Assembly: GCA_029667085.1 (NCBI GenBank) | Contig: JARUHJ010000001.1 | Coordinates: 1-64,000 of the forward strand | Source of the DNA: Deltaproteobacteria bacterium IMCC39524 | GTDB lineage: Bacteria > Desulfobacterota > Desulfuromonadia > Desulfuromonadales > BM103 | Direction: 5' to 3' | DNA: 64,000 bases | In this document: positions 4,719 through 24,964 of the stretch, one piece after another | How the letters are laid out: every line of letters begins with the position of its first letter | Numbering within the stretch: position 1 is the stretch's first letter | The notes under the pieces: generated by a model | Told to the model about the DNA's origin: nothing | Databases searched by the model: none | Seen by the model: only the letters and a program-made list of their open reading frames with translations | Translations under genes and position numbers: made by a program

Positions 4719-6803
4719 ATGGCGGTTACAGTTAAACGAAAATTGATGCACAAGTTCCTTTTTTCCATCCTTACGGTGATTATCGTGGGCATGGCCGGTC
4801 TGACTTTTTTCTCCTATACCATGGCGAAAGATGCCTTGCGGGAAACTGTAGAAAAGCAAGTCACCCAGATTGTTGAGTCAACGGTCAAGTCAATGTCCTT
4901 CTGGGTCAAGGACCGCCGCCTGGATGTGAGCAACTGGAGCAAGCAGAAGGTCTACCAGTCTTCGGTGCAAGACTCTTTCCTGGGCAAGGCTGCTCGAAAG
5001 GGCGCAACGGCTGAGCTGGTACGATTAAAGGAAGAATATGGGTACTACTCGGATATCCTCCTGCTCGACAAGACTGGTAATGTTATTGCCGCCTCTAGCC
5101 CGGCTCTGATTGATGTCGAGACGCTGGATGGCAAGAACTATTTCAAAGAGGCGCTATCCGGAAATCTTTTTGTCTCCCAGGTTTTCCAGAGCAATCAGAC
5201 AGCTCGTCCAATCTTTGCCATTGCCAGCCCGGTGCTTAAGGGAGAAGCTGTTGAAGGTGTTCTGTGCGGTTTCGTAGACATGGACTATTTCAATAGCTTG
5301 TTTGCAGGGAGTGTCAAACTCGGCAAGACGGGCTATGCCTTTATGTTTAACAAAGATGGCGTTGTTGTTGCCCATCCGGATCCGCAACAGATTCTGAAAA
5401 CCAATATGGCTAGCCTGGAGTTTGGTCCACAGATGCTTGCCAAAAGAAACGGCGCACACCTGTATAGCTATAAGGGCCTGGAAAAGTTTGCTTACCTGGC
5501 GCAGGATGATGACCTGGGTTGGACCTTGGCAGTGGGTGTAGGTACCGAAGAGCTCAATGCACCGGCCATTAGGATCAGAAACATTAATTCGTTTCTGGCT
5601 CTTGTTATCATGGGTATTGCTGCGCTAGTGGTTTATATCGTTGCGCGCAAAGTTGTCGTTCCGATTACGAATGCTGCACAACTTGCTGAAACAATCCGCC
5701 TTGGGGATCTTTCTGAGCGTTTGGATACTGACCTTAATGACGAAGTTGGCCAACTTTCTGATGCCTTGAATGCCATGGCCGACGGTCTGGAACAAAAAGC
5801 CCAACTGGCAGGGGCTATCGCCGATGGAGATCTCACGGTTGATGTGCGACTTGCTTCTGAGAATGACCAGCTGGGTAAGGCTTTGCAAACCATGACCGAA
5901 GTTTTAAATGATGTTATCCAGCAGGTCATGGTCGCTACGGGTAATGTTGCCTCCGGAAGTCAGGCTCTGGCTTCGGCAAGTCAGGAGATGTCTCAAGGCG
6001 CCACAGAACAGTCGGCTTCTGCAGAAGAGGCTTCCAGTTCGATCGAGGAGATGTCAGCCAATATTCGCCAGAACACAGACAACGCGATGCAGACAGAGAA
6101 AATTGCCGTCAAGGCGGCACAAGAGGCCGAGCAGGGTGGTGCGGCCGTTGCTGATACGGTTGCTGCAATGAAGGAGATCGCCAACAAAATTGTGATCATC
6201 GAGGAGATAGCCCGCCAAACGAACCTGTTGGCTCTGAACGCAGCGATTGAGGCTGCTCGTGCGGGTGAGCACGGTAAAGGTTTTGCCGTTGTTGCTGCTG
6301 AGGTTCGTAAGTTGGCAGAACGCAGCCAGACGGCTGCGGGTGAGATCAACAGTTTGTCAGTCTCCAGTGTGGAGGTTGCCGAGAGTGCCGGGTCAATGCT
6401 CGACAGTATTGTGCCGAGTATTCAAAAAACTTCGGAGCTTGTTCAGGAAATCGCAGCGGCCAGCCGTGAGCAGGATGCTGGTGCTGACCAGATCAACAGT
6501 AGTATTCAGCAGTTGGACAAGGTTATTCAGCAAAATGCTGCTGCGACCGAAGAGATGGCATCTACCTCTGAAGAATTGACCAGTCAGAGTGATCAATTAA
6601 AAGACATGATGGCCTTTTTTAAAGTCAAGGATTTTGATGTTCCGAGCCAGCAGCTTGCACGCCGAAGTGGGCCCATAGCTTCATCGGGGAGTGCTCCGTT
6701 GTTTGACCGCCCCGCTAAGGAAATACCCCGGCTTGAAAACGCCAATGGTGAGGTCGGTCGTGGCAGTCATGACGATATAGACAACGAATTCGAGACCTAT
6801 TAA
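4719..6803 (+). CDS. Methyl-accepting chemotaxis protein with dCache-like sensor
   Basis: Chemoreceptor of 694 residues. TM1 is at about 14-33. A large periplasmic dCache-like domain (about 35-285) contains [18 protein letters not shown] and [11 protein letters not shown]2 is at about 288-310, with HAMP about 311-365 and a further HAMP-like stretch to about 400. The cytoplasmic signalling hairpin is almost identical to that of the receptor at 244-2001 ([20 protein letters not shown] around residue 490). The tail ends DNEFETY, a CheR/CheB tether-like sequence. The start follows AAAGGAG. The upstream binding protein may deliver ligand to the sensor domain. The stop overlaps the region just before cheW. 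Confidence 0.93.
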
Positions 6804-20950: not shown

Positions 20951-21028
20951 TCCGAACGGGCAAAGCCAGAGAGATCTGGTGACGCAAAGCCACGGATCCT
21001 GACATTCAGGATAGCCGGGTTGCCGAAG
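20951..21028 (+). promoter_or_regulatory. GEMM-I cyclic-dinucleotide riboswitch aptamer, copy 1
   Basis: The conserved GEMM-I core is present in order: GGGCAAAG, a stem CCAGA-GAGA-TCTGG closed by a GNRA tetraloop, TGACGCAAAGCCACGG, a variable stem TCCTG-ACATT-CAGGA, then TAGCCGGGTTGCCGAA. The base aligned with Vc2 G20 is G, the form normally selective for c-di-GMP. It is followed about 45 bases on by its own terminator. Confidence 0.9.
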
Positions 21029-21074
21029 AGATGAATCACGTTTCTTCCGTCTCCGCTGTTCTAAGGAATACAAG

Positions 21075-21112
21075 AAGCGCTCATCTTCGGTAGAAGATCG
21101 GGCGCTTTTTTT
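21075..21112 (+). terminator. Riboswitch expression platform terminator, copy 1
   Basis: AAGCGC-TC-ATCTTC hairpin with GAAGAT-CGG-GCGCTT, followed by seven T. It is placed as expected for ligand-controlled transcription termination or antitermination. Confidence 0.85.
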
Positions 21113-21124
21113 ATGAAGGTAACT

Positions 21125-21253
21125 ATGAAGCACCTGTCCGTCGCTTATGTCGATGGTCAGTTGAGTTTCTCCGAACGGGCAAAGCCAGAGAGATCTGGTG
21201 ACGCAAAGCCACGGGTCCTGGCATTCAGGATAGCCGGGTTGCCGAAGAGATGA
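21125..21253 (+). CDS. Possible 42-residue leader ORF running through aptamer 2
   Basis: Directly after terminator 1, GAAGGTAACT precedes an ATG that opens 42 codons. The first 15 are unique (MKHLSVAYVDGQLSF) and the rest are aptamer 2 read as codons, ending at TGA 21251-21253. Translation would unfold aptamer 2. It may be chance; the same aptamer sequence in copy 1 has no such ORF. Confidence 0.25.
   Translation: MKHLSVAYVDGQLSFSERAKPERSGDAKPRVLAFRIAGLPKR
21170..21248 (+). promoter_or_regulatory. GEMM-I cyclic-dinucleotide riboswitch aptamer, copy 2
   Basis: Nearly identical to copy 1, 219 bases upstream, with two differences in the core (GGATCCTGA becomes GGGTCCTGG). The GNRA-capped stem, GACGCAAAGCC and TAGCCGGGTTGCCGAA are all kept, and the Vc2-G20 position is again G. 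The two copies form a tandem array, each with a terminator, upstream of the Pal-like lipoprotein gene. Confidence 0.9.
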
Positions 21254-21293
21254 ATCACGTTTCTTCAGTATCCGCTATTCTAAGGAATACAAG

Positions 21294-21335
21294 AAGCGCT
21301 CATCTTCGGCAGAAGATTGGGCGCTTCTTTTTTTT
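21294..21335 (+). terminator. Riboswitch expression platform terminator, copy 2
   Basis: AAGCGCTCATCTTC pairs with GAAGATTGGGCGCTT around GGCA, followed by CTTTTTTTT. Same design as copy 1. Confidence 0.85.
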
Positions 21336-21386
21336 AATGCAAAGACTCACTTACAAAGACTTTAACTTCTTAAAGTTCGCCAAGCT

Positions 21387-21472
21387 TCACCCCAGGGGCA
21401 GCTCTAAAGTTTTTTTCGCCTCCTGTAAAAAACTTGTCCTTCAGGTTTTGCTGTTCCCTGGGGTGTTTTTTA
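21387..21472 (+). terminator. Third, nested terminator-like structure before the lipoprotein gene
   Basis: CACCCCAGGG (21388-21397) pairs with CCCTGGGGTG (21456-21465), followed by TTTTTT. An inner hairpin, AAGTTTTTTT / AAAAAACTT, lies within the loop. RNA polymerase must pass this third barrier to reach the gene at 21535. It may be a switch element or the remains of another leader. Confidence 0.6.
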
Positions 21473-21534
21473 AACAAAAGAGGGTATTTATCAATAGCTG
21501 AGGGCCTTAATTTTAACAGTGAGGAGTCGAAACA

Positions 21535-22131
21535 ATGAAAAATTTCATCATGCTACTTTTAACCGTTGTCACCATGCTTTGTGTCGTTTTAATTGCAGGA
21601 TGCGCTAAAGACCTTGTAGTGGAACCCATAGACGCCGAAGCACAAAATGGGGCAGTACAAAAGAAGCAAGCCTCGCAGAACGTAGATGACGCAGATGTTC
21701 TGGAAAATACAACAGTCATAAACGTTGGACTGGAGCGCGTATATTTTCCGTTTGACCAGTTTACCTTGACCACCAAGGCTCGAAGGGTCTTGGATGCCAA
21801 TGCAATAATATTGAAATCTTCTCCTGCCTTGAAGGTAAGTATCGAGGGCCATTGTGATTCTCGCGGTTCAGATGAATACAATCTAGCCCTTGGCGAACGA
21901 CGTGCTCATGTTGTCAAAAACTATCTTGTTTCGCTGGGCGTTGCATCGGATCGCTTTGAAACGATCTCCTACGGGGAGGAATTGCCAGCAGACTCAGCGA
22001 TGACTGAATCTGCCTGGGCAAAGAATCGCCGTACTGAGTTCAAGACCATCAACCAAACTTTCTTCAATAACGATATAGCTCCGATCGAGAAAAGCCAGAT
22101 AGACCTGGTGACGAAAAGCCATGGGTCCTGA
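21535..22131 (+). CDS. OmpA/Pal-like peptidoglycan-associated lipoprotein
   Basis: 198 residues. The signal peptide ends in lipobox VLIAGC, predicting an outer-membrane lipoprotein. After a low-complexity linker comes an OmpA-like domain (about 62-170). It has VYFPFDQFTLT, SIEGHCDSRGSDEYNLALGE (the peptidoglycan-binding Asp/Arg region) and SYGEELP...WAKNRRTEF, so it should bind peptidoglycan diaminopimelate non-covalently. Normal Pal proteins end near NRRxEF; here about 28 extra residues follow, the last 17 encoded by a degenerate GEMM aptamer. GTGAGGAG lies 7 bases before the ATG. It is preceded by two GEMM-I riboswitches, so expression is probably set by a cyclic dinucleotide. There are no tol genes nearby, so it is probably not the housekeeping Pal. 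Confidence 0.88.
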   Translation: MKNFIMLLLTVVTMLCVVLIAGCAKDLVVEPIDAEAQNGAVQKKQASQNVDDADVLENTTVINVGLERVYFPFDQFTLTTKARRVLDANAIILKSSPALKVSIEGHCDSRGSDEYNLALGERRAHVVKNYLVSLGVASDRFETISYGEELPADSAMTESAWAKNRRTEFKTINQTFFNNDIAPIEKSQIDLVTKSHGS

Positions 22132-22160
22132 TTTACAGGATAGCCGGGTTGCAGAGGAGA
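22081..22160 (+). promoter_or_regulatory. Degenerate GEMM-I-like aptamer, copy 3, overlapping a coding end
   Basis: Recognisable by order and spacing: GAGAAAAGCCAG, CTGGTGACGAAAAGCCATGG, GTCCTGATTTACAGGA, TAGCCGGGTTGC. It departs from copies 1-2 at key points. GGGC becomes GAGA, so the Vc2-G20 position is A; GACGCAAA becomes GACGAAAA; and the first stem has no GNRA loop. The first 51 bases are translated as the C-terminus of the lipoprotein gene. The downstream hairpin (about 22207-22230, TCATCTTC-TGTA-GAAGAT) has lost its outer stem and T-tract. It may be vestigial, or act on the next gene at 22262. Confidence 0.6.
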
Positions 22161-22261
22161 TGAACCCGTTTCCTTGTTCTCTGTTATTCAGGGAACACAA
22201 GAACTGGTCATCTTCTGTAGAAGATTGGGTGATAATTTTAAGTTGGTAATAAGGGGGTTTT

Positions 22262-22705
22262 ATGGTTTTTCGTACATTGTTGGTTGCTGTCAGTTTCATA
22301 TTGCTGTTTACCGCTATGGCCCATGCAGACATGAATGCCTACATCCATGATCTCAACGTTTCTGTGCAGGGCGATATTGGTGGCTACAAGACAAAACTGG
22401 GCGTACGGTTCGGTACGTCGAAGTCCCAGGTCGAAGCGGTTTTTCGGTCTGTTGAAAGCCCGGCCGAGGTGGCCGTTGTTTTGTGGCTCGGAGAGCAGTC
22501 ACGACAGTCGCTCGATACGGTTCTGAAGGTCTATCGTTCTCAAAAGCCGCAAGGCTGGGGAGCGATGGCCAAAAGTCTCGGGATCAAACCTGGGTCAGCA
22601 GCTTTTCACGCCTTAAAGCAAGGTGATATTCAACTTTCTATGCATACCGGCACATCACAAAGGAAAGGGGGAAATAAAAAAACCAAAAAGAGCAAACACG
22701 GCTAG
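22262..22705 (+). CDS. Small secreted protein of unknown function
   Basis: 147 residues. The N-terminal signal peptide has its hydrophobic core at 5-17 and a likely cut after AMAHA. The mature protein is small, with a very basic C-terminal tail (KGGNKKTKKSKHG). No domain was recognised. AAGGGGG precedes the ATG at suitable distance. It lies downstream of aptamer copy 3, in the same direction as the rest of the locus, and so may belong to the same cyclic-dinucleotide regulon as the Pal-like lipoprotein. Confidence 0.7.
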   Translation: MVFRTLLVAVSFILLFTAMAHADMNAYIHDLNVSVQGDIGGYKTKLGVRFGTSKSQVEAVFRSVESPAEVAVVLWLGEQSRQSLDTVLKVYRSQKPQGWGAMAKSLGIKPGSAAFHALKQGDIQLSMHTGTSQRKGGNKKTKKSKHG

Positions 22706-22888
22706 TTGCTTATTTAATAAAGCAAGAATTAGAAATTGTAGCCCTTGTTCTCATGCACAATTTACTTGCTATTGCTTTCTTCAAGCTTTTGTTCTTAGTA
22801 AACACCAAAAAGTCATAATGTTCCAATGGAGCAATGCTTGTTCCTTATTTATGTCTGATGAAATCAATAAAAATTGAGGAGTAGGACC

Positions 22889-23149
22889 ATGGAGATCAAA
22901 TTAGCTGAAGCCATCGTTGAGGCTTGTGACCAGAATGGTTTCAAAGTTGAGTTACAGAAAGAATATTCGGTTCCCTGGATGCGTGGACGAAAGACCGTCG
23001 GTGTAGAGATAGCCGGGGGAGATTTGACCAAAGTTATAGCTTCAATAGTGAATAACCCCCACTTTTTTATCGAAGGTGAATCACCGAAGTTCGATATCAA
23101 AAATGATCTTAGTGTGAGTCCTTTTCGACTTAGTTTGATCCTGCACTAG
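22889..23149 (+). CDS. Small cytosolic protein of unknown function
   Basis: 86 residues from the ATG at 22889, which has GAGGAG upstream; the frame is open to 22874. There is no signal peptide or membrane segment. It is a mixed alpha/beta sequence (MEIKLAEAIVEACDQNGF...VGVEIAGGDLTKVIASIVN) and no family was recognised. It ends 26 bases before a PilZ gene and is probably co-transcribed with it, so a link to c-di-GMP signalling is an inference from position only. Confidence 0.65.
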   Translation: MEIKLAEAIVEACDQNGFKVELQKEYSVPWMRGRKTVGVEIAGGDLTKVIASIVNNPHFFIEGESPKFDIKNDLSVSPFRLSLILH

Positions 23150-23175
23150 TCAGTAATTTGGAGGAGCTTTTATTG

Positions 23176-23571
23176 ATGCTGATAACTAAAGATTGTGGGA
23201 TGCCAATTATAAAACCATTCGGCAGCCGTGTAAAAGTTGCGACAACGGTTCACTATGAACCATGCCATGAAATGGCTCTTTCTGGCCTGAGTGAGGATTT
23301 AAGTGTTGGTGGACTTTACCTCCAGACAAATCTTGTGTTAGACCTTAATGAAGTATTTAAAGTGACCTTTCCTCTGCCAGGGCAAGAAAAAGTAGTTTCA
23401 TGCGAAGCAAGTGTAGCGTGGACCAACTTCGCTGTAAATCAACGGAAACCGGAAATACCATATGGTGTAGGTTTACAGTTTGAAGACCTTTCGCTTGATA
23501 ATTTATTAGCATTGTCAACCTTTGTGGATCATCACAATAAATTGTCAAAAATGACTATGCCCTCTGTTTAA
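23176..23571 (+). CDS. PilZ-domain protein with incomplete c-di-GMP motif
   Basis: 131 residues forming one PilZ domain, a fold that usually binds c-di-GMP. The second binding motif (D/NxSxxG) is present as DLSVGG. At the first motif (RxxxR), alignment with the paralogue at 24596 shows Pro-Phe-Gly-Ser-Arg, so the first Arg is lost and binding may be weakened or absent. The C-terminal part, SCEASVAWTNF...PYGVGLQFEDLS, matches the paralogue closely. The start at 23176 is chosen because GGAGGAG lies about 10 bases upstream. Confidence 0.85.
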   Translation: MLITKDCGMPIIKPFGSRVKVATTVHYEPCHEMALSGLSEDLSVGGLYLQTNLVLDLNEVFKVTFPLPGQEKVVSCEASVAWTNFAVNQRKPEIPYGVGLQFEDLSLDNLLALSTFVDHHNKLSKMTMPSV

Positions 23572-23806
23572 TTTGCCCCCCGTTTAAGTGCATGCCGGGT
23601 GCCGTTAGGAACAATGAGTTATGGAACGAGTGGTGGGTGTTTAATGTTGCCGGGCTCAAAATTGAATTGCAACACTTGGATTATCTGCAGGTGTCCCTTC
23701 CTGCTTGTCAGGATCAGTAGGAATTGTGCTTTTTCGCCAATCTGGTGCATTCAGTACAATGCGAGCGGATAAAAACCCCCTACTTTATTGCTTAATTCTG
23801 TGCTCC

Positions 23807-23835
23807 TTGACGTAACCCTCAGAATGACCTAGTAT
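23807..23835 (+). promoter_or_regulatory. Possible sigma70 promoter for riboswitch copy 4
   Basis: TTGACG (23807-23812), 17 bases, TAGTAT (23830-23835). The predicted start near 23842 is just upstream of the aptamer, as needed for a riboswitch leader. Confidence 0.5.
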
Positions 23836-23851
23836 AAAATTCTGTTTACTC

Positions 23852-23928
23852 TCCGATAATAGCAAAGCTAGGGCGACCTAGTGACGCAAAGCCAGGGGTC
23901 ACACTGTGACAGCCCAGCCACCGAAGAG
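23852..23928 (+). promoter_or_regulatory. GEMM-I cyclic-dinucleotide riboswitch aptamer, copy 4 (A20 type)
   Basis: Core elements: ATAGCAAAG, stem CTAGG-GCGA-CCTAG with GNRA loop, TGACGCAAAGCCAGG, stem GTCACACTGTGAC, then AGCCCAGCCACCGAAG. The base aligned with Vc2 G20 is A, the form reported in Geobacter relatives to favour cyclic AMP-GMP (3',3'-cGAMP). The sequence has clearly diverged from copies 1-2 but is structurally complete, with compensating stem changes. A terminator follows and then the gene at 24052. Confidence 0.85.
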
Positions 23929-23954
23929 GGTTTAGGGATAAGCATACCTAAACG

Positions 23955-23987
23955 TCTATCTTCACTATCGAAGATAGGCTTTTTTTA
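23955..23987 (+). terminator. Riboswitch expression platform terminator, copy 4
   Basis: CTATCTTC pairs with GAAGATAG around ACTATC, followed by GCTTTTTTT, 65 bases before the next start codon. Confidence 0.82.
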
Positions 23988-24051
23988 TGGGTGCAGATAA
24001 AAACCGCTAGATGGTCATATCAAAAACAATTTAGCTATGGGTTGAAAATAT

Positions 24052-24450
24052 ATGCCAGCCAAACATTTTATTGATAAAGAAGCTAAGCTTATTGTGACAA
24101 CATGGGAAGGTGATGCCGCTGATATAGAGTTCATTGAAGCGATAACAAAATATCAGAAAGACATTCAATTAAATCCAGAATACATAGAGTACAATGAAGT
24201 TGCTAATTTTTGTAAAATCACAAGCATAAAGCTTACGCCAAAGGGCTTGAAAACGATTGGGCGAATCGCGTCAAAAACAGATCAGTATAAATTCAACAGC
24301 AAGCTTGCTCTTGTTGTCAGTTCAGGCGCTGCCTTTAACCTCGCAAGGATTTATGCGTCGTTTAGAAATATACAGAACGGTACAAACAAAGAAATACGTA
24401 TTTTTAAAAGTGAGGTAGAAGCAATGGGGTGGGCTCAAAATAAAACATAA
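24052..24450 (+). CDS. SpoIIAA/STAS-like (SEC14-like fold) protein
   Basis: 132 residues, soluble. The pattern fits the widespread SpoIIAA-like family: IDKEAKLIVTTWEG at the start, a central YIEYNEVANF and LTPKGLKTIGRIAS, then SKLALVVSSGAAFNLARIYASF and an EIRIFKSEVEAMGWA ending. The biochemical role is unknown; members are small regulatory or ligand-binding proteins. There is no strong ribosome site before the ATG (GGGTTGAAAATAT). The gene lies directly behind GEMM-I copy 4 and its terminator, so it is the probable output of that switch. Confidence 0.75.
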   Translation: MPAKHFIDKEAKLIVTTWEGDAADIEFIEAITKYQKDIQLNPEYIEYNEVANFCKITSIKLTPKGLKTIGRIASKTDQYKFNSKLALVVSSGAAFNLARIYASFRNIQNGTNKEIRIFKSEVEAMGWAQNKT

Positions 24451-24595
24451 CCATAAAAAATGTGCCAGCAGGAAAACGGCCTTCTTTCCTGTTCAATTCA
24501 TAACAAACGCTTATCTTTGCTTCTCTCGCAATTCACTGTTTGTGCAAGCTTAGATTTAATAGAAGACAATCTTCACAAATATGAGGAATGCTACA

Positions 24596-24964
24596 ATGCC
24601 TTTGCATAATGGCGAACCACCTGAAAGACGTTCTAGCGTTCGGCTCAAAGCGGAGCTAAGGGTTTACTACGGTGACCACCAAAGTAAATTGCTTACAGGC
24701 TACAGCATAGATTTAAGTACAGGAGGGATCTTCCTTAGCACAACATGCCCATTCGATGTTGATGACATTGTAAAGTTGAAATTATCAATACCGGGTGAAG
24801 AGGAAAGTACAGTCTCATGCGATGCACGTGTTGCATGGATTAATTACGAGGACAAGCGCCTTAAGCCTGAATTTCCAACAGGTGTCGGTCTGCAATTTGT
24901 CGATCTTACACCGGAAAACTTCGGTTCAATAGTAGGTTTTTTAGAGGTCGAAGCAGCTTGGTAA
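24596..24964 (+). CDS. PilZ-domain protein
   Basis: 122 residues, a single PilZ domain with both c-di-GMP motifs: RRSSVR (RxxxR) near residue 13 and DLSTGG (D/NxSxxG). The C-terminal strand pattern (SCDARVAWINYE, PTGVGLQFVDLT) resembles the TIGR02266-like Myxococcus/Geobacter PilZ group. The start at 24596 follows ATGAGGAATGCTACA, where GAGGA is the ribosome site; the ATG at 24581 has none. Possible roles include motility or surface control through protein contacts. Its paralogue lies at 23176. Confidence 0.9.
   Translation: MPLHNGEPPERRSSVRLKAELRVYYGDHQSKLLTGYSIDLSTGGIFLSTTCPFDVDDIVKLKLSIPGEEESTVSCDARVAWINYEDKRLKPEFPTGVGLQFVDLTPENFGSIVGFLEVEAAW

Follow-up and report, generated by a model that had tools for sequence, protein, structure and literature searches.

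A cluster of GEMM-I riboswitches of two predicted ligand types in Deltaproteobacteria bacterium IMCC39524

Described GEMM-I arrays and the present locus

Tandem riboswitches of the cyclic di-GMP type I (c-di-GMP-I) class have been catalogued as 347 doublets and 12 triplets (PMC9481103). The triple array Bc3-5 is known from Bacillus thuringiensis (PMC4759541), GEMM-I pairs in tandem occur several times in Geobacter sulfurreducens (PMC6456294), and Desulfobacca acetoxidans has a mixed cluster of c-di-GMP, cyclic AMP-GMP (c-AMP-GMP, below cGAMP) and adenosylcobalamin (AdoCbl) riboswitches within 7 kb (PMC9481103). Here we describe a 4-kb locus (positions 20,951 to 24,964) in a stretch of 64,000 nucleotides, the window, from Deltaproteobacteria bacterium IMCC39524. 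It probably consists of two adjacent transcription units that are each controlled by GEMM-I riboswitches through transcription attenuation. The first would comprise two aptamers in series, C1 and C2, each with its own terminator, upstream of a gene for a Pal-like envelope lipoprotein; the second would comprise a cGAMP-type aptamer, C4, upstream of a gene for a 132-aa protein and a gene for a PilZ-domain protein, PilZ2. A decayed copy, C3, lies behind the lipoprotein gene. All parts of the locus are on the forward (+) strand.

The locus resembles tandem c-di-GMP-I riboswitches in that complete aptamer-plus-terminator units (C1, C2) stand in series before one gene, but differs from them in the Pal-like lipoprotein gene, an extra long hairpin and the decayed copy behind the gene. 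With the Desulfobacca acetoxidans cluster it shares several GEMM-I aptamers within a few kb, divided by a G or an A at one pocket base, with genes between them and terminators behind the switches. However, it has no cobalamin switches, its genes are different and one of its copies is a fossil; moreover, the authors of that study predicted ON control, whereas the model presented here favours OFF. The GEMM-Ib cGAMP riboswitches of Geobacter (PMC6456294; PMC8835794; for pilM, PMC9262584) are similar to C4 in combining an aptamer with A at position 20 (A20) and a terminator in a genome with Hypr-type GGDEF enzymes. They precede a cytochrome or pilus gene, whereas the genes behind C4 are an uncharacterised one and one for a PilZ protein; in the pilM switch, unlike here, the terminator includes the aptamer strand (PMC9262584). 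Each type of switch is already known, and the locus is a new example from a Geobacter-related bacterium rather than a new kind of system. Less usual are the fossil copy absorbed into a coding sequence, the hairpin at 21388-21471 and the fact that a cGAMP-type switch has an intact PilZ gene in its vicinity.

Aptamers, terminators and direction of control

A search of the whole window with Rfam families at their own cut-offs (35 bits, the gathering cut-off, for RF01051 and 65.9 bits for RF03168) gave three aptamers, all inside the 4-kb region. These were C1 (20950..21028; RF01051 69.5 bits, RF03168 68.2 bits), C2 (21169..21247; RF01051 68.7 bits, RF03168 67.0 bits) and C4 (23851..23926; RF01051 54.6 bits). 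A preliminary description of this DNA had counted four GEMM-I aptamers and had named the RF01051 covariance model as a check. Its copies 1, 2 and 4 were indeed matched above the cut-off, but C3 reached only 34.8 bits and has lost its P1b helix and terminator. A covariance model built in this analysis (R1), of which the training set took in C1, C2 and C4 and left out C3, scored the four copies at 76.3 (C1), 75.6 (C2), 43.6 (C3) and 77.9 bits (C4). Covariance-model alignments contain the P1b, P2 and P3 helices in C1, C2 and C4, and two-sided changes preserve the aptamer fold among 34 distinct related sequences. C1 and C2 form a tandem duplication with a 163-nt repeat, a spacing of 219 bp and 95% identity. 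C1 is identical in 79 of 79 positions to its counterpart in a species of the same genus (G003), and C4 in 75 of 75 positions to that of a further relative (G005), where the upstream flank is only 58% identical. Since both aptamers are 100% identical despite diverged flanks, they are under strong selection.

The binding pocket separates the aptamers into two types. With position 20 numbered as in Vc2 and taken from the alignment, C1 and C2 have G20 and C4 has A20; all three share A47 and C92. For homologous aptamers, in-line probing has shown that G at position 20 favours c-di-GMP and A favours cGAMP; in a published A-type aptamer the affinity for cGAMP went up and c-di-GMP binding was not fully lost (PMC9481103). 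Judged by these pocket bases, C1 and C2 are predicted c-di-GMP sensors and C4 is a predicted 3',3'-cGAMP sensor, which agrees with the earlier suggestion that more than one related messenger is sensed here. Following the Ser rule for Hypr selectivity (PMC6456294), two of the 13 GGDEF domains in the genome (genome positions C4:481937 and C9:53932) carry Ser at the selectivity position and have their GGDEF motif intact; this Ser is also found in a third GGDEF domain, which is degenerate. Such putative Hypr-like enzymes would match the predicted cGAMP type of aptamer C4.

Intrinsic terminators follow C1 at 21071..21112 (-22.6 kcal/mol for 21066-21112, then a U run), C2 at 21290..21333 (-25.2 kcal/mol for 21285-21331) and C4 at 23954..23986, where the G005 stem is kept, with A replaced by G so that a G-U pair results. 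The preliminary description was right about three adjacent terminators: those of C1, C2 and C4 are strong, and that of C3 is gone. Two complete aptamer-plus-terminator units (C1/T1 and C2/T2) thus precede the Pal gene, which is the layout of a tandem pseudo-cooperative riboswitch, and a transcript of the first unit would have to clear both switches, from which a sharper response is expected. In C1 and C2 the aptamer 3' strand GCCGAAGAG, which holds C92, is able, together with the linker, to pair with the terminator loop and the entire 5' arm. For transcripts ending 5' of the terminator 3' arm, RNAfold, which models neither ligand nor kinetics, favoured this antiterminator in C1, C2, C4 and most relatives, with antiterminator/terminator energies of -21.6/-20.5 (C1), -25.8/-24.6 (C2) and -13.4/-12.4 kcal/mol (C4). 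When the aptamer strand was locked, as it would be by ligand, the antiterminator weakened to -10.1 (C1), -11.9 (C2) and -8.4 kcal/mol (C4), and the gain of antiterminator was larger with a free aptamer strand in 33 of 36 leaders. The nearly equal energies and the loss of the antiterminator on locking therefore fit the needs of a ligand-OFF attenuator. In such a switch, GCCGAAGAG and the linker would pair with the terminator 5' arm in the absence of ligand and the gene would be read, whereas bound ligand would hold the GCCGAAGAG strand in the aptamer, so that the terminator forms and transcription stops.

A third long, terminator-like hairpin lies between the C2 terminator and the Pal gene (21388..21471; -32.7 kcal/mol, z=-3.5) and ends in UUUUUU. 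It may be a third gate in the Pal leader. It matches no Rfam family. Among 136 genomes of the order, 3 have it, and these belong to one genus and carry it only at this same locus; in G007 one G-C pair has become A-U. Its apical sequence is near-invariant.

The folding model makes us lean towards OFF control, and several points weigh against this or against the wider two-unit arrangement. The OFF prediction depends on folding before the terminator 3' arm is made; in full-length folds without ligand the terminator wins and the aptamer strand lies in a local linker hairpin, which suits ON control. In a permutation test, cognate antiterminator strands paired no better than exchanged ones (p=0.67); the missing signal of co-evolution follows from the near invariance of the aptamer side, and this test for covariation of the aptamer strand with the terminator arm gave no confirmation of OFF, although linkers do pair better than shuffled ones (-19.1 versus -17.7, standard deviation 0.46). 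The known Geobacter cGAMP switches are ON switches (PMC6456294, PMC9262584). The hairpin at 21388-21471 may add further control of Pal, and another hairpin, whose sequence differs between two species, separates the 132-aa gene from PilZ2, which makes the reading of PilZ2 from C4 less certain. ON switching, which we regard as possible but the weaker candidate, would have the linker hairpin hold the aptamer 3' strand in the unliganded state while the terminator forms; with ligand, the freed linker CGUUUCUU would pair with the base of the terminator 5' arm, AAGAAGCG, and allow read-through. The unliganded full-length folds display this pairing of aptamer strand and linker together with the terminator, an 8-bp complementarity of linker and arm is readable in C1 and C2, and the Geobacter precedent (PMC6456294) points the same way. 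On the other hand, the C1 and C2 terminators, at -20 to -25 kcal/mol, are far stronger than the antiterminator with a locked strand (-10 to -12 kcal/mol), and the larger gain in the free state in nearly all leaders also argues for OFF. A different objection concerns the ligand, as C1 and C2 both score above the RF03168 cut-off and cmscan retained RF03168 over RF01051, so that they could belong to the Rfam c-di-GMP-I-UAU variant family with an altered ligand. This is hardly credible, since their G/A/C pocket is the ordinary c-di-GMP set and the U20/A47/U92 pocket of the RF03168 model consensus is not matched although the score passes. The two families are in a near tie (68.2 versus 69.5 for C1), and relatives sharing the G/A/C pocket are divided between the UAU and GGC names. 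The UAU label was therefore rejected as a sign of a new ligand for C1 and C2. GEMM-I aptamers with the ordinary G/A/C pocket that received UAU or GGC labels by Rfam clan competition were also seen at the loci L097, L098, L099, L102, L104 and L106.

The decayed copy and the modules in relatives

C3 (22079..22157) scores 34.8 bits with RF01051 (cut-off 35) and 34.2 bits with RF03168 (cut-off 65.9). It is still homologous to the other copies, with 81% identity to C1 over 97 nt and 43.6 bits with R1, which was not trained on it. Its P1b has changed from GC/GC to GA/GA, and the same site reads TA/GA in G003. The terminator is lost, as there is no U-run and the stability is only -5.5 to -8.0 kcal/mol. 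Between this genome and G003, C3 is 94.9% identical, no better than the Pal gene (94.9%), and the terminator region 80.7%, compared with 100% for C1. The Pal-like reading frame now has its 3' end in the 5' part of C3: in relatives the Pal gene ends well 5' of an intact aptamer, whereas here about 23 C-terminal codons extend beyond the end in relatives and into C3. Compared with G003, these codons differ by no synonymous and one non-synonymous change, a number too small for a verdict on selection. Between Pal and the gene for a 147-aa protein (S147), C3 is therefore a fossil third switch, of which both aptamer and terminator have decayed and into which the Pal frame has grown. The remnant folds as an antiterminator (-30.9 kcal/mol, z -4.0), and transcription from Pal therefore probably continues into S147, which would join the two genes. 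An explanation of C3 as merely the switch of a lost giant gene was found to be only partly right: the second GEMM-I copy of relatives does stand before a gene for a giant DUF11 protein, of which no counterpart was found in this genome, but G007 has S147 after the same position. In that genome (L100, G007:C376) the Pal homologue breaks off near codon 144, where the 3' end of a GEMM-I copy and its terminator take over, and S147 comes next. The GEMM-I repeats could have recombined here, or the assembly could have been joined at a repeat.

The two intact units recur in relatives as separate modules. G003 has the same Pal gene (92% protein identity). In a second locus of G003 and in G011 and G017, one to two GEMM-I copies stand before a Pal-like gene and one to two more before a gene for a giant DUF11 protein; giant DUF11-type proteins are also preceded by GEMM-I copies in G001, G022, G029, G054 and others. 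Pfam was run on the giant proteins of G001, G003, G011, G017 and G047. A relative of the giant protein was not found in the present genome, and the same family was found in the controls G001, G003, G011 and G017. The doubled GEMM-I copies and Pal here are part of an order-wide family of GEMM, Pal and giant-adhesin arrangements. In G005, the C4 aptamer, its terminator, the 132-aa gene (80%) and PilZ2 (87%) stand together elsewhere, without Pal, and GEMM-Pal was found in relatives without the C4 module. Because both modules occur separately, the locus is best seen as a juxtaposition of the two. Triple tandem GEMM-I units before genes for giant or Ig-like surface proteins were observed in other species of the order (L102 4839-5341, L104 4877-5462). 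In G005 (L105, ~6650-6685) a poly-C run of ~34 nt in a hairpin loop lies upstream of the C4-like switch, possibly as a slippage tract or an assembly artefact.

These comparisons bear on two further alternatives. C3 could be a working variant in which the GA/GA double change gives tandem sheared G-A pairs in P1b: both C-to-A changes are able to make 5'-GA/GA-3' tandem pairs, and A47 and C92 are retained. We consider this very unlikely, since the terminator is lost and the 5' part is coding, and the idea of a functional tandem G-A variant was rejected because G003, with TA/GA at the same site, does not conserve the motif. The preliminary description had gone further and proposed one shared envelope or surface programme, in which four working aptamers and the PilZ proteins would act on a single output. 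Physical closeness favours it, as does a slight enrichment of PilZ genes around GEMM-I sites: in the whole genome, 4 of 24 PilZ genes lie at most 3 kb from a GEMM-I site compared with 1.2 expected (P=0.03). However, 2 of those 4 are in this locus, so that the enrichment leans on the locus itself, and the decay of C3 and the separate occurrence of C4-132aa-PilZ2 in G005 and of GEMM-Pal elsewhere speak against it. Synteny in relatives thus bore out the recurrence of the genes but as two separable modules, and a single integrated programme seems improbable. Two neighbouring units under attenuation control remain our preferred explanation.

Genes of the locus, genome context and meaning

The Pal-like gene (21535..22131) encodes a Pal/OmpA-family peptidoglycan-associated lipoprotein of 198 aa, as recognised before (curated equivalog model TIGR02802 130.7 bits, cut-off 125.35; PF00691 80.3 bits). 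S147 (22262..22705) has an N-terminal signal-like sequence and no family above cut-off; homologues occur in 27 of 98 relatives. P86 (22889..23149), an 86-aa protein with no assigned family, adjoins PilZ1 here and likewise in G003. Both PilZ proteins of the preliminary description were verified with PF07238 (cut-off 22.5 bits). PilZ1 (23158..23571; 40.5 bits) has kept the DxSxxG motif (DLSVGG), but its RxxxR motif is incomplete (KPFGSR, without the first Arg), and it may bind c-di-GMP poorly; it is not directly downstream of any intact aptamer. PilZ2 (24581..24964; 55.4 bits) holds both c-di-GMP motifs, RRSSVR (RxxxR) and DLSTGG (D/NxSxxG). The gene directly after C4 (24052..24450) encodes the 132-aa protein, with orthologues in G005 (80%) and G013 (57%). 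Its former label as SpoIIAA-like is unsupported, since it has no match in Pfam, NCBIfam or PDB sequences, and its structure model (predicted local distance difference test, pLDDT, 62) is too poor to use, which makes a fold comparison with the PDB meaningless.

The genome of 3.78 Mb contains about 37 GEMM-I aptamers, a number at which single copies are expected, and the 4-kb locus is the densest cluster. Elsewhere in the genome (L003, G000:C6:62460-63321), a G20 GEMM-I aptamer lies directly upstream of a gene for an apparent receiver-PilZ fusion of 261 aa. Here a c-di-GMP-type RNA switch precedes a protein with a predicted c-di-GMP-binding domain.

The locus shows riboswitch evolution at several stages: C1 and C2 are a fresh tandem duplicate, C4 is a switch under strict conservation, and C3 is a fossil that was taken over by the preceding gene. 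It is also a small natural system in which to test how c-di-GMP and cGAMP signals are separated or brought together, and it illustrates that Rfam variant labels (UAU, GGC) can mislead on the ligand if the pocket bases go unread. We tentatively suggest that C4 may put a PilZ protein with c-di-GMP motifs under control of cGAMP, while C1 and C2 may let c-di-GMP control the Pal-like lipoprotein, with a further attenuator at 21388-21471. If this is true, the c-di-GMP and cGAMP networks would be cross-wired at the RNA level.

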